From Bryobacterales bacterium (lineage in GTDB: Bacteria > Acidobacteriota > Terriglobia > Bryobacterales > Bryobacteraceae): a DNA stretch of 61,017 nucleotides. The notes below the pieces were generated by a model that worked only from the letters and a program-made list of their open reading frames with translations, was not told where the DNA came from and made no database searches. Both the position numbers and the translations under genes were made by a program. The stretch lies in assembly GCA_009697505.1 (NCBI GenBank), contig SHUD01000008.1, positions 1 through 61,017 on the forward strand. Reading direction: 5' to 3'. Every line of letters starts with the position of its first letter. Within the stretch, counting starts at the first letter, position 1. Shown here piece by piece: positions 36,606-40,488 of the stretch.

Positions 36606-37643
36606 CTATACCGCGACGGCTTCCGTGACGCGGGCCCGCTTCCACAGCGCGATATAAGGTTTCAGGTCTTCCATCATCGCCGCCCACTGTTTGGGATCCA
36701 GGGATTGCGCGCCGTCGCTGACGGCCTTCTCCGGATTCGGGTGCACCTCAACAATGATGCCGTCGGAGCCAATGGCCACCGCGGCGCGCGCCAATGACGG
36801 CACCAGGCTGCGTTTTCCGGTGGCGTGGCTGGGATCGAGAATCACGGGCAGATGCGTCAGCTCGTTCAGCACGGAAACGGCGGTGATATCGCAGGTGTTG
36901 CGGGTGGCGGTCTCAAAGGTGCGGATACCGCGCTCGCACAGCATGACGTCCGGATTGCCGTGCGCCACGATGTATTCGGCCGACATCAGCAACTCTTTGA
37001 TGGTGGAGCTGAGGCCGCGCTTCAGCAGAATCGGGCGGCCGCACTTGCCCAGCGTCTTGAGCAGCGAAAAGTTCTGCATATTGCGCGCGCCGATTTGCAG
37101 GATGTCGGCGTACTCGGCAACCATCTCGACGTCGCGATCGCTCATGACCTCGGTGATGATGCCCAGGCCGGTGATGCGCCGGGCCTTATCCAGAAGTTTC
37201 AGACCTTCCAGTTCCAGACCCTGGAAGTCATACGGCGAAGTGCGCGGCTTGAACGCGCCGCCGCGCAGCAGTTTGGCGCCATGTTTGGCGACCAGTTCCG
37301 CGGTCTCCAGAATCTGCTTTTCGCTCTCCACCGAGCACGGGCCCGCCATGGTGACGAACTCGTCGCCGCCGATCACCGTGCCGCGCACCTGAATGCGCGT
37401 CTTTTCCGGGCGGAACTCGCGGCTCACGAACTTGTACGGCGCCGAAATCCGCACGGCTCGTTCCACCGCCGGCATGGCTTCGACCGACTCCAAACACGCC
37501 GTCACATCGCCCATGCCCACCGCGCCGATCACGACCCGCTCCTCGCCCGCGATCGAATGAACCTTATACCCGAATTCCTCAATGCGCTCGCGTACATGAT
37601 TGATCTCCTCCTTGGTCGCGTGCAGTCTCATCGAAATAATCAT
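36606..37643 (-). CDS. aroF: 3-deoxy-7-phosphoheptulonate (DAHP) synthase
   Basis: A 345-residue DAHP synthase of the type I-beta (KDO8P-like) group. It condenses phosphoenolpyruvate with erythrose-4-phosphate as the first step of aromatic amino acid synthesis. A ferredoxin-like regulatory domain (about 1-70), known in Thermotoga to mediate Tyr/Phe inhibition, precedes the barrel with [46 protein letters not shown] and [16 protein letters not shown] lies 6 nt before the ATG. Upstream is an attenuator with an aromatic-rich leader peptide, so the enzyme seems controlled at both transcription and activity. Confidence 0.95.
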
Positions 37644-37660
37644 AGGAGTCTCCTAAAAGT

Positions 37661-37717
37661 CAAAAAACCCACTCTTTCGAGTGGGTTGCTTTCAAATTCA
37701 CTTGCTCAGCCCACTCG
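37661..37717 (-). promoter_or_regulatory. Transcription attenuator of the DAHP synthase gene
   Basis: Reading the minus strand, segment 2 is CGAGTGGG (plus 37710-37717), segment 3 is CCCACTCG (plus 37678-37685) and segment 4 is GAGTGGG (plus 37668-37674). Segment 3 can pair with 2 (antiterminator, 8 perfect bp) or with 4 around GAAA (terminator stem AACCCACTC/GAGTGGGTT), which is followed by TTTTTTG. The two hairpins exclude each other. Segment 2 begins 8 nt after the stop of the leader peptide, so a ribosome stalled on the aromatic codons would leave segment 2 free, whereas one reaching the stop would cover it and allow termination. Confidence 0.9.
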
Positions 37718-37724
37718 TCGCGAT

Positions 37725-37778
37725 TCAGACGGTAAAGTACCAGTAGCTAAATCGAAACGAGCTGGCGGCCGAAAGCAT
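37725..37778 (-). CDS. Aromatic-rich leader peptide of the attenuator
   Basis: ATG at 37778 opens MLSAASSFRFSYWYFTV, ending at TGA 37727-37725. Six of its last ten residues are aromatic (F, F, Y, W, Y, F), which is what a sensor of phenylalanine, tyrosine and tryptophan charging would need. No ribosome site is visible. The -10 box is 8 nt upstream, so the mRNA would start at or next to the ATG and be translated as a leaderless message. Confidence 0.85.
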   Translation of the reverse strand: MLSAASSFRFSYWYFTV

Positions 37779-37786
37779 GAAATCGA

Positions 37787-37815
37787 AGTATAGCACAACT
37801 ATCTGCCCCTGAGAA
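37787..37815 (-). promoter_or_regulatory. Promoter of the leader-DAHP synthase transcript
   Basis: On the minus strand TTCTCA (plus 37810-37815), a 17-bp spacer, and TATACT (plus 37787-37792). The -35 box lies inside the 3' end of the upstream ABC transporter gene. The predicted start is at about 37780. Confidence 0.65.
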
Positions 37816-39730
37816 TCCTTAAGGCATCGCCTACGCCGGCGCCATCGGGCTTGGACCGTCCGGACTTTTCCGCTTCCGGGATCGCGTCTCCTTCGCCGGG
37901 CGCCAGGAACAGGTTGGCTTCCAGGCCATGCTGGCGGGTATACAGATCCCAGTAGCGGCCTTCTAGAGCGTAGAGAGACTCGTGCGTGCCGCGCTCCACG
38001 ATGCGCCCACCCTCGACCACCAGAATTTGATCAGCGCGGCGGATGGTGGACAGGCGGTGCGCGATAACAAACGTCGTGCGCCCCTGCATCAGGTATTTGA
38101 GGCCCTCTTGGATCAGCGCCTCGGATTCGGAATCCAGGCTCGACGTGGCTTCGTCCAGGATCAAAATACGCGGATCGGCCAAAATCGCCCGGGCAATCGA
38201 CACGCGCTGGCGCTGCCCGCCGGAGAGTTTGACGCCGCGCTCGCCGACCACCGTGTCGTATTTGTTTTCGAAGTTTTCCGCGAACTCATCCACGCGGGCG
38301 ATCCGGCAGGCGTTGAGAATCTGTTCCTTGGCCGCACTGGGCCGCGCGAACGCAATGTTTTCCTCGATGCTGCCGTCAAATAGGAAGGTGTCCTGCAAGA
38401 CTACGCCGAGCTGCGTGCGGTAGTCATCCAGACGAACCGCGGAAAGATCCACGCCGTCTACCGAAACCGTTCCCGCATTCGGCACATGGAACGCCGCAAT
38501 CACACTAATGATGGTGGACTTGCCGGAACCCGAAGAACCAACCAGCGCCGTTACCGTGCCCGGCTCAGAGCGAAAGCTGACATCGAATAACACCGGCTTG
38601 CCCTCGTCATAGGAGAAGCTGACATTGTCGAAGACGATTTCTCCGGTGATCGGTCCCAGTGGCAGCGTGCGCCGGGGATCCTGATCTTCGGGGCGCTCCT
38701 TCAAAACTTCGTGCGTGCGGTCCAGACCCGCCAGCGCTTCCGTGATCTGCGTCCCGATGCCCACGATTCCAAACACCGGCGCCACCAGGAACGCCAGAAA
38801 TGCCGTGAAGGTAACGAATTCTCCAAGAGTCAAAGTCCCGGTGAAAATCTGCCGCGAACCCACATACATGACTACCGCGCCGACGATACCCATGAGAACA
38901 GTGGCCGAGAGGCTCATAAACGACATTGCCGTGAGCGAAGCTTCCACGTTGGTCAGCAGCCTCTTTGCACCGGCCGCGAAGACACCCGCCTCGCGTTCTT
39001 CGGCGTGATAGCCCTTGACCACGCGGACGCCGCCCAGCGATTCGGTCAGCCGTCCCGTTACTTCGGCGTTGATCTTGCCGCGCTCGCGGAAGATTGGCCG
39101 GATCTTGCGGAACGCTTTGGAGAGCGCGAATCCGAACACGGCTACAAACAGAGCGGTCAGGCCCGTCATGATCGGGCTGATCCGCAACAGGATCACCAGT
39201 GCCACCACGGCGGTCATCAGACCGCCGGCGAATTCCACCAATCCGGTGCCGATCAGGTTGCGCACGCCTTCGACGTCGGTCATGATGCGCGACACCAGTA
39301 CGCCGCTCTTGTTGGCGTCGTAGTAACTCACCGGTAACCGTCCCACGTGCCGCTGGACTTTCTGCCGCAACTCGGCGATCAGGCGTTGCCCGGCTTTGGA
39401 AAGTAGTTGCGTGAGCGTGAACGATGTCACGCCCTGTAGCAGCGTGGCCGCGACGACCGCCAGAACCAGCGGCGGCAGCAATTCGATCTGCCTCTTGCCC
39501 AGCACGTCGTCAATAAGGAAGCGCGTGGAATAAGGCAGCACCAGGCCGCTCAGCCGGTTAACGATCATCAGCCCCAACCCCAGCAGCAGCAGCCCTCGCC
39601 GGGGCAGGATCATTTCGCGTAAATCCGGCCAAACTTCGCGGATGCGCTCGGCCTGAGTGCGCTTGGGAGTGACGCCCTTGTCGCGGGAATGCTTTCCGGA
39701 AGGGGTTCGTTCGACGGAGTGTGGACCCAC
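37799..39730 (-). CDS. ABC exporter, fused permease and ATPase
   Basis: A half-transporter of about 643 residues: six membrane spans (first at LLLLGLGLMIVNRLSGLVL) with an MsbA/Lipid A-exporter-like permease, then a nucleotide-binding domain with Walker A GSSGSGKST, Q-loop VVLQDTF, signature LSGGQRQR, Walker B ILILDEATS and H-loop IAHRLST. It should act as a homodimer exporting lipid, drug or peptide. The start is uncertain: the frame stays open into the divergent DUF72 gene, and GTG at 39730 is the best candidate because it avoids that overlap. The C-terminus has an extra charged tail of about 35 residues. Confidence 0.86.
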   Translation of the reverse strand: MGPHSVERTPSGKHSRDKGVTPKRTQAERIREVWPDLREMILPRRGLLLLGLGLMIVNRLSGLVLPYSTRFLIDDVLGKRQIELLPPLVLAVVAATLLQGVTSFTLTQLLSKAGQRLIAELRQKVQRHVGRLPVSYYDANKSGVLVSRIMTDVEGVRNLIGTGLVEFAGGLMTAVVALVILLRISPIMTGLTALFVAVFGFALSKAFRKIRPIFRERGKINAEVTGRLTESLGGVRVVKGYHAEEREAGVFAAGAKRLLTNVEASLTAMSFMSLSATVLMGIVGAVVMYVGSRQIFTGTLTLGEFVTFTAFLAFLVAPVFGIVGIGTQITEALAGLDRTHEVLKERPEDQDPRRTLPLGPITGEIVFDNVSFSYDEGKPVLFDVSFRSEPGTVTALVGSSGSGKSTIISVIAAFHVPNAGTVSVDGVDLSAVRLDDYRTQLGVVLQDTFLFDGSIEENIAFARPSAAKEQILNACRIARVDEFAENFENKYDTVVGERGVKLSGGQRQRVSIARAILADPRILILDEATSSLDSESEALIQEGLKYLMQGRTTFVIAHRLSTIRRADQILVVEGGRIVERGTHESLYALEGRYWDLYTRQHGLEANLFLAPGEGDAIPEAEKSGRSKPDGAGVGDALRILRGR

Positions 39731-39753
39731 TGCCCTTAGTGTAGCCTGACAGC

Positions 39754-40488
39754 ATGGCTGGGCTTTATCGCGGGACACTTTATTGTGGGACATCCGGATT
39801 CGCCTACGCGTCCTGGAAGCCGGATTTTTACCCGCCGAAGCTCGCCGCCAAAGACTTCCTGAAGCATTACGCCACGCGCCTGAATGCCGTCGAAATCAAT
39901 TACACCTTTCGCCAGTTGCCCAAGGCCGCGACACTCGAAAACTGGGTGAACGCCACGCCCGACGGCTTTCTGTTCGCCTGCAAGGCGCACATGCGCATCA
40001 CCCACATCCACCGGCTGAAGGAATCCGAATTTACCGAGCTCTTCTTCAAGGCGCTGGAGCCTTTGCGCGCGACGCACTGTTTGGGTCCTATATTGTTTCA
40101 GTTACCTCCGAATCTTAAAGTTGACATCGAGCTGCTGGCCCGGTTCCTGGGGCAGCTTCCGCCTGATGTCCGAACCACCTTCGAGTTTCGTAATCAGACT
40201 TGGCTGATGGATGAGGTCTACCGGCTGCTCGAACAGCATCGCGCCGCGCTGTGTCTGGCCGAATCGGATAAACTAGATGTGCCGCGCGTGATTACGTCCG
40301 ATTTTGTTTACGCGCGGCTGCGCAAGCAGGAGTATTCGCCCGCGGACCGCCGCGAAATCGCGGACCGGGCGCGCGAGCAGATCGCCGCCGGCCGGGATGC
40401 GTTCGTGTTCTTCAAGCACGAAGATACGCCGGAAGGCGCGCTGTATGCCGAAGAACTCAGGAGCCAACAGGCTGGGAGGATGGTATGA
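39754..40488 (+). CDS. DUF72 domain protein
   Basis: A 244-residue TIM-barrel protein of the DUF72 (YecE) family: LYCGTSGFAYASWKPDFYPP at the start, NAVEINYTFRQLPKAATLENWV, FLFACKAHMRITH, LGPILFQLPPNLK and TTFEFRNQTWL. The biochemical role is unknown. It is divergent from the ABC exporter and begins an operon: its stop overlaps the next ATG by 4 nt (GTATGA). Confidence 0.93.
   Translation: MAGLYRGTLYCGTSGFAYASWKPDFYPPKLAAKDFLKHYATRLNAVEINYTFRQLPKAATLENWVNATPDGFLFACKAHMRITHIHRLKESEFTELFFKALEPLRATHCLGPILFQLPPNLKVDIELLARFLGQLPPDVRTTFEFRNQTWLMDEVYRLLEQHRAALCLAESDKLDVPRVITSDFVYARLRKQEYSPADRREIADRAREQIAAGRDAFVFFKHEDTPEGALYAEELRSQQAGRMV

Follow-up and report, generated by a model that had tools for sequence, protein, structure and literature searches.

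A conserved predicted transcription attenuator with a probably leaderless aromatic leader before the DAHP synthase gene aroF in Acidobacteriota

We sought to understand how entry into the aromatic pathway might be controlled in an acidobacterium whose DAHP synthase gene, aroF, is preceded by a short open reading frame rich in aromatic codons. The question raised by this locus is whether the ribosome, in translating that reading frame, could decide if aroF is transcribed, and to which amino acids it would respond. The locus lies on the minus strand of the window, that is the whole 61,017-nucleotide stretch of Bryobacterales DNA that was analysed. A preliminary description had proposed a promoter, an aromatic leader ORF, an antiterminator, a terminator, a T-run and the aroF start in this region, and all of these elements were found in place. 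The features are as follows, with the evidence for each helix or segment given in brackets.

37815-37643, minus strand: whole attenuator region, with promoter, leader ORF, three competing helices (1:2, 2:3 and 3:4), U-tract and the Shine-Dalgarno-led start of aroF
37787..37815, minus strand: promoter, with a -35-like TTCTCA (37815-37810), a 17-bp spacer and TATACT (37792-37787); 9/12 matches to consensus
37725..37778, minus strand: leader ORF MLSAASSFRFSYWYFTV, 17 codons plus TGA, no Shine-Dalgarno sequence, start 8 nt past the -10 box
37750..37761, minus strand: segment 1, CTCGTTTCGATT, 5' arm of the 1:2 pause hairpin, within leader codons S-S-F-R-F (folding, partner swap)
37714..37725, minus strand: 3' arm of the 1:2 hairpin, AATCGCGACGAG, whose first base is the last base of the stop codon (folding)
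37710..37717, minus strand: segment 2 core, CGAGTGGG, 5' arm of the antiterminator, 7 nt after the leader stop (sequence, alignment, folding, partner swap)
37678..37685, minus strand: segment 3, CCCACTCG, common to antiterminator (2:3) and terminator (3:4) (sequence, alignment)
37666..37687, minus strand: intrinsic terminator hairpin (3:4), AACCCACTC-GAAA-GAGTGGGTT (terminator scan, column counts, folding)
37659..37665, minus strand: U-tract 3' of the terminator stem, TTTTGAC, then TTTT (sequence, terminator scan)
37650..37654, minus strand: Shine-Dalgarno sequence AGGAG of aroF, 6 nt 5' of its ATG (sequence)
36606..37643, minus strand: aroF, the regulated gene, a DAHP synthase (PF18152 plus DAHP_synth_1; TIGR01361, DAHP_synth_Bsub)

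The promoter has an extended -10 element, with TGC immediately 5' of TATACT. The leader MLSAASSFRFSYWYFTV carries six aromatic residues among its final 10, with the core FRFSYWYF. A 22-nt spacer follows the segment 2 core CGAGTGGG, and then come AACCCACTCGAAAGAGTGGGTTTTTT, AGGAG and the aroF ATG. The gene upstream encodes an ABC transporter (37799-39793, minus strand), and its last codons overlap the -35 box at 37815-37810. The aroF product of 345 amino acids has an N-terminal ferredoxin-like domain (PF18152) followed by DAHP_synth_1, and scores above the cut-off of NCBIfam model PRK08673.

The attenuator observation is correct and lies well above chance. A 901-base region contained two promoter-like sites, compared with a mean of 0.3 in 50 shuffles, and two terminator-like sites, compared with a mean of 0.8. 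The folding z-score was -5.4, and none of 200 shuffles was equally stable. When the 300 nt upstream of aroF were dinucleotide-shuffled, an ATG-initiated ORF of 9-30 codons with at least six aromatics in ten codons arose in 2 of 5000 shuffles, and none of the 5000 placed a -10 box 7-11 nt upstream of such an ORF. With the cluster relaxed to at least five aromatics, its combination with a -10 box at that spacing from the ATG was present in 56 of 80 upstream regions (the window and 79 relatives), compared with 1 of 4000 shuffles.

Leader peptides and promoter spacing among aroF relatives

The relatives of aroF compared here were the best 80 of 465 loci from a scan of GTDB contigs. Their labels were mainly Bryobacterales or other Acidobacteriota; Candidatus Sulfopaludibacter was the label of the nearest (L003, 96% identity). 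Three records labelled Bordetella parapertussis (L031), Singulisphaera (L021) and Nevskia soli (L052) fell with acidobacterial rows of the aroF tree and are probably mislabelled or contaminated metagenome bins. Informative relatives numbered 79, the eightieth (L065) having just 43 nt upstream. An ATG-initiated leader with an aromatic cluster preceded aroF in 66 of these 79, and a clear leader was absent in the other 13. Fourteen of the 80 relatives were set aside by hand (L027, L030, L032, L036, L037, L052, L053, L055, L061, L065, L066, L068, L070 and L073), with a terminator-like hairpin retained in L037, L052, L053 and L068. Leader ATGs were chosen by the peptide alone, apart from a manual shift of the L004 start to the in-frame ATG next upstream. 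Across the resulting 67 leaders, including that of the window, a mean of 18.8 residues held 3.36 Phe, 1.73 Tyr and 1.27 Trp, with Phe in 67/67, Tyr in 62/67, Trp in 63/67 and all three in 58/67; since rows were chosen for aromatic clusters, these frequencies are no independent evidence, and it is the shuffle test that is independent.

Within the leaders a core S-F-R-F-W was well conserved, F, Y and W interchanged, and length and flanks varied widely. Comparison of 31 nearest-neighbour pairs showed that 175 aromatic codons out of 201 stayed aromatic, compared with 119.6 +/- 4.8 under random placement, a retention inflated partly by construction, as each pair consisted of two rows picked beforehand as aromatic leaders. 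Synonymous changes made up 57 of the 248 changed codons in these pairs, compared with 49.2 +/- 6.5 expected, which is no significant excess. The third positions of the codons have a second function in the 1:2 stem, and a synonymous signal may hence be masked. No in-frame stops occurred (10.3 expected), but this carries no weight, because the pairs were required to have equal ORF length.

The conserved core would be expected if the leader were an arrest peptide sensing a free aromatic amino acid, or a peptide or small RNA acting in trans, instead of a sensor of tRNA charging, and a trans role is described for the trp leader peptide of S. meliloti (PMC7298713). The interchange of F, Y and W and the variable length and flanks argue against this, as do the double use of the conserved stretch as RNA segment 1 and the Trp-rich versions of the leader that accompany trpE-like genes. 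We consider such a peptide-centred reading very unlikely.

The distance between promoter and leader suggests how translation of the leader would begin. A -10-like hexamer (at least 4/6 matches, A at position 2, T at position 6) ended 8 nt before the leader ATG in 26 of 67 leaders and 9 nt before it in 23. Distances of 10, 11, 12 and 13 nt accounted for 7, 6, 2 and 5 leaders, and any other distance from 0 to 29 nt for at most three. When a single best box was chosen (4-15 nt searched, ties resolved towards the distance nearest 8), it ended 8-11 nt before the ATG in 62/67. The -35 box was weak, with 3/6 matches in 40/67 leaders. A Shine-Dalgarno match of at least 4 nt occurred at 1/67 leader starts, compared with 57/67 aroF starts and about 11% of random positions. 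A -10 box a few nucleotides before the start codon without a Shine-Dalgarno sequence is the mark of a leaderless leader, and the acidobacterial leader has both. Predicted leaderless genes average 13.3% in Acidobacteria and occur in 3/3 genomes (PMC3160421). A leaderless start is likely for this leader, and the suggestion in the preliminary description that transcription begins at or next to the ATG gains support from this spacing at the level of sequence.

If instead the leader had a short 5' UTR, initiated independently of Shine-Dalgarno pairing, or was transcribed from farther upstream, then the attenuator would be a normal one and not leaderless. The five of 67 leaders whose best -10 box lies outside 8-11 nt, under the search range and tie rule given above, would fit this, as would the aroF leaders L147 and L153 of family f29, which carry a Shine-Dalgarno-like GGAAGG. 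The peak at 8 and 9 nt in the open scan, the 66/67 starts lacking a Shine-Dalgarno match and the predicted frequency of leaderless genes in Acidobacteria (PMC3160421) speak for a leaderless start, and we regard the alternative as unlikely. Five relatives without the attenuator (L055, L061, L066, L070 and L073) have TATACT (three) or TATAAA (two) 6-8 nt before the ATG of aroF, and look as if everything between the leader start and the gene start had been lost, leaving aroF itself leaderless.

Competing helices and ribosome geometry

Alignment A1 comprised 66 of the 67 leaders; L039 was omitted, as it had no hairpin with a U-tract under the rule used. The duplex energy of each segment with its own partner was compared with that obtained with partners from other species across these 66 leaders, by permutations whose only control for kinship lies in two control pairings. 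Own partners gave means of -12.7 kcal/mol for 1:2, -19.0 for 2:3 and -18.1 for 3:4, compared with -10.8, -16.8 and -16.8 kcal/mol for foreign partners (z -6.5, -7.4 and -7.7). The control pairings 1:3 and 1:4 showed no weakening (z +0.2 and +0.9). The gains were modest, the own partner being better than the median foreign one in 45/66 leaders for 1:2, 53/66 for 2:3 and 37/66 for 3:4.

Column by column, 99.5% of terminator cells in A1 were paired, in rows that had been chosen for having the hairpin. Two-sided changes occurred at 4/9 terminator pairs (1/500 shuffles as high), and the covariation score exceeded that of all 500 shuffles. The 2:3 columns were 85.7% paired (1/500 shuffles as high) and their covariation was weak: of 500 shuffles, 31 scored as high, 29 had as many two-sided cells, 337 as many further pair types and 409 as many pairs with a two-sided change. 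Column counts cannot track 2:3, because two pairing registers are mixed among the leaders, one with GAGTGGG and one with the bulged GAGTGGCGTTGG. Moreover, the core CCCACTC was near-constant and held little covariation information, with CCC and the C of ACTC invariant across the 66 aligned leaders. A near-invariant core is expected, because one stretch has to fit two partners, and conserved patterns of that sort have been noted for attenuators in Actinobacteria and Proteobacteria (PMC1262725). The alignment proposed as a check on the preliminary description, for recurring aromatic codons and covarying stems, thus came out in its favour with respect to the leaders in 66/79 relatives and the partner-swap covariation, and fell short in the column-wise 2:3 counts.

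Predicted energies indicated which helices would form. The 2:3 helix was weaker than 1:2 plus 3:4 in 66/66 leaders, and termination would therefore be the default. In isolation, 2:3 was more stable than 3:4 in 52/66 leaders and not so in 14/66 (means -18.7 and -15.9 kcal/mol), so that 2:3 could win once segment 1 is masked. The corresponding fold energies in the window were -26.8 kcal/mol for 1:2, -16.3 for 2:3 and -14.7 for 3:4.

For the geometry, distances were taken in A1 from each codon to the base at which the segment 2 core begins, rows having been selected without regard to distance. The stop codon lay at most 14 nt from segment 2, or beyond it, in 66/66 leaders. In contrast, 407 of 419 aromatic codons lay at least 15 nt upstream, 362 of them at 15-45 nt. 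The aromatic share of codons was 0.52-0.73 at 18-41 nt, and at most 0.05 below 12 nt and from 54 nt on. In the window, all six aromatic codons of the leader lie 20-41 nt upstream of segment 2, within the enriched zone. Since a terminating ribosome would mask segment 2 and a stalled one would not, the observed distances are what such a mechanism needs. Taken together, the sequence presents the marks of a classical attenuator: a leader ORF of end-product codons, mutually exclusive 2:3 and 3:4 helices with a U-tract, a 1:2 helix overlapping the regulatory codons, and the spacing of stop and regulatory codons.

Distribution of the element and its variants

A covariance model, R1, was built from A1. 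In the window's own genome it found one element at E <= 1e-3. Across 200 genomes of the order, it matched 145 at E <= 0.01, a count that includes the own genome and some training sequences, and gave no match in 55; of the 30 best loci that were fetched, 15 contained a training row and 15 did not. An aroF gene was found in 167 of the 200 (E <= 1e-120), 149 genomes having aroF among the matches listed. At E <= 1e-5, 116 of 136 R1 matches adjoined a listed aroF, 14-134 nt upstream on the same strand. Three more lay near contig ends away from a listed aroF, and 17 were in genomes without a listed aroF; when 12 of these 17 were fetched, all 12 preceded a DAHP synthase gene (tblastn) and none was a training row. 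Of the 149 genomes in which aroF was listed, 33 showed no adjacent match at E <= 1e-5.

Given that the ABC transporter gene, also on the minus strand, runs to 37799, the hairpin could in principle be nothing but its terminator, without regulation. That reading leaves the leader, the antiterminator, the geometry and the covariation unaccounted for, and the element stands directly before a listed aroF in those 116 of 136 matches; we consider it extremely improbable.

In the search of the class, R1 matched 73/200 genomes at E <= 1e-5. In families other than that of the window, 18 of 20 fetched matches preceded aroF, with one further match at a contig end and one weak match without aroF; one of these 20 loci was a training row, and another (L241) is the set-aside L037, judged there by its leader. 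In the search of the phylum, R1 matched 42/396 genomes at E <= 0.01, many matches covering the terminator alone. Matches before aroF thus extended to other families of the class and to one family of another class. Weak matches in the phylum and class searches, many of them to the terminator only, were not counted as members, and L198, L200-L202 and L240 were dropped, having no aroF or trpE-like gene nearby. Most assignments of DAHP synthase or trpE-like genes on fetched loci were made by tblastn with aroF or, for a few loci, by family scans. Presence and absence of the attenuator required 11 changes on the aroF tree, 6 of them forced by well supported branches. Rfam gave nothing above gathering score in window positions 37500-38000, the only hit being TEG147 at 21.1 bits, compared with its gathering score of 56.1.

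Related leaders also preceded other genes. In family f18, leaders NWFWWPWHF (L157, L158) and NWFWWSWRF (L159) precede aroF, and in L158 an anthranilate-synthase-like gene, cut by the end of the locus, lies 3' of aroF as an aroF-trpE pair. Before trpE-like genes in other parts of the phylum we found NNYFWCWY (L160), YNYAWRWY (L195, with a GTG start), RYAWWWY (L196) and RYYWWY (L199); the best NCBIfam model for the genes of L160, L195 and L196 was trpE_most, below its cut-off. The predicted sensor therefore matches the gene, with Trp-rich leaders before the trpE-like genes of L160, L195, L196 and L199 and at the aroF-trpE pair of L158. Within the window's own genus, no Trp leader was seen before trpE(G) among the two most Trp-rich ORFs at each of ten loci (L170-L179). 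One of these loci, on contig C39 of the window genome (G000; L173), encodes a fused TrpE(G) anthranilate synthase (TrpE clade 3, above cut-off), with no visible Trp leader.

A role in feedback inhibition is attributed to the N-terminal domain of DAHP synthase. In genus g216 the leader precedes a DAHP synthase of 266 amino acids without PF18152 (L186 and L190 by scan; L187, L191 and L192 by length), and control at the RNA level may there have outlived that domain.

Among 40 aroF loci of other families, taken by place, 11 had an ORF with at least four aromatics in ten codons, a count that rests on two ORFs per locus and includes some that are not convincing. Examples are MNNRFYSYYYYGSYQTDP (L153), with the Shine-Dalgarno-like GGAAGG, and MRFTSFTMPFRYCGFTP (L142) before aroF. 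ORFs of the 'VLGSY' type before aroF in other families were discounted, since they probably represent the C-terminal end of a prephenate dehydratase encoded upstream, their motif being one which we take to be typical of the end of that enzyme. In a genome of the same class (G195), a poly-cysteine leader, MTTISNTFSFRCCCCCNVTGVRG, with a similar terminator precedes a peroxiredoxin gene (AhpC-TSA plus 1-cysPrx_C; L161:1501-1638), making it a candidate cysteine attenuator of an oxidative-stress gene.

Proposed control of aroF and its relation to known attenuators

Anatomy, conservation, geometry, relative predicted stabilities and promoter spacing can all be read from the DNA, and they suggest with high confidence a classical ribosome-mediated transcription attenuator of aroF. 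RNA polymerase would start at the leader AUG or no more than about 3 nt away from it, and a ribosome would load onto the leaderless 5' end. With charged Phe-, Tyr- and Trp-tRNA abundant, the ribosome would reach the stop codon and cover segment 2, so that 3:4 would pair and transcription would stop before aroF. With these tRNAs poorly charged, it would stall at the aromatic codons and block the pairing of segment 1, leaving segment 2 free; this would pair with segment 3, no terminator would form, and aroF would be transcribed and translated from its own Shine-Dalgarno sequence. If the leader were left untranslated, 1:2 plus 3:4 would form and transcription would end. We infer from the sequence the transcript start, leader translation, stalling, read-through and amino acid specificity.

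That one leader senses Phe, Tyr and Trp, as the preliminary description proposed, is plausible. In the window's genome, which is 65% complete, aroF was the only DAHP synthase of either class found (PF00793 and PF01474 searched). Class II (PF01474) gave no match, and a second DAHP_synth_1 gene, on contig C72, was rejected, as it reads by eye as a KDO8P-type synthase after pyrG. The enzyme would therefore have to serve all three aromatic branches. It is nevertheless quite possible, if short of probable, that the attenuator works but is in practice governed by fewer than all three amino acids, most likely by Phe, the rest being incidental. Phe is the commonest leader aromatic (3.36 per leader, compared with 1.73 for Tyr and 1.27 for Trp) and is present in all 67 leaders. 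In C. glutamicum, moreover, only Phe limitation acts on the aroF leader despite its Phe-Tyr-Phe codons (PMC11802643), and a Tyr codon without effect calls for caution on three-way sensing. Against this stand the retention of all three aromatics in 58/67 leaders, the position of all six window codons in the enriched zone and the sole DAHP synthase found in an incomplete genome.

The E. coli trp, pheA and ilvGMEDA attenuators follow the same logic of segments 1 to 4, and ilvGMEDA is a precedent for a single leader answering to several amino acids. Their leaders, in Proteobacteria, are led by Shine-Dalgarno sequences. The three E. coli attenuators are named in PMC1183508, and E. coli aroF itself is under repressor control, for which TyrR and TrpR are cited jointly with respect to aroF and aroH (PMC11802643). 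The view that such control is known chiefly from Proteobacteria proved too narrow, since aroF leaders are known in Corynebacterium and have been proposed in Acholeplasma. The aroR-aroF system of C. glutamicum likewise places a leader with aromatic codons before a DAHP synthase gene and uses transcription attenuation (PMC4046766, PMC11802643). It belongs to another phylum, however, and as far as its description allows comparison only Phe-Tyr-Phe is named and Tyr supply is without effect (PMC11802643). The Acholeplasma uORFC-13-1, immediately upstream of aroF, likewise combines promoter boxes, a uORF with one or more Phe codons and an intrinsic terminator (PMC8632094). It has a ribosome binding site and at least one Phe codon, and is described only from Acholeplasma and environmental sequences of unknown source (PMC8632094), whereas the acidobacterial leader, set apart from it by description, has no ribosome binding site before its ATG and mixes Phe, Tyr and Trp. 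An attenuator RNA that begins with the leader ATG is described for trpL of S. meliloti, which is a Trp sensor before trpE(G) and not before aroF (PMC7298713). Several amino acid leader peptides of Streptomyces lividans are likewise leaderless and sense Leu, Thr, Met and others, aroF being unmentioned in the text (PMC8079986).

The preliminary description knew of no earlier account in this phylum, and this holds within the open-licence PubMed Central literature, subscription papers lying outside: no aromatic or aroF attenuator in Acidobacteriota was named in the portions of that literature searched. Leader genes in Acidobacteria are counted in PMC4833913, which makes no mention of aroF, phenylalanine or aromatic. 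A 2010 survey states that hardly any attenuator predicted in Acidobacteria had an assigned function, and that leader-peptide systems had until then been unshown outside Proteobacteria and Actinobacteria (PMC2965389).

We offer tentatively, as a possibility somewhat short of an even prospect, a broader picture in which the ribosome would be the main sensor of three aromatics at the shikimate entrance in much of Acidobacteriota. The leaderless three-way leader would take the part of repressors of the TyrR/TrpR type, it would have outlived the N-terminal domain of DAHP synthase in g216, and a swap of codon mix, from Trp-rich before trpE to Phe/Tyr/Trp before aroF, would re-aim one ancestral RNA frame.

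The sequences point to a textbook-type attenuator conserved in a phylum where we found none described, with a sensor that is probably leaderless and possibly three-way. The covariance model R1 is usable for the annotation of acidobacterial genomes. Two questions could be studied on this element in its natural setting, namely the way in which a leaderless uORF stays in step with RNA polymerase and the way in which a single short ORF would read three tRNAs at once. The conservation of this family in a widespread soil phylum suggests a greater age for such control, or more frequent invention, than one would gather from the textbook cases.
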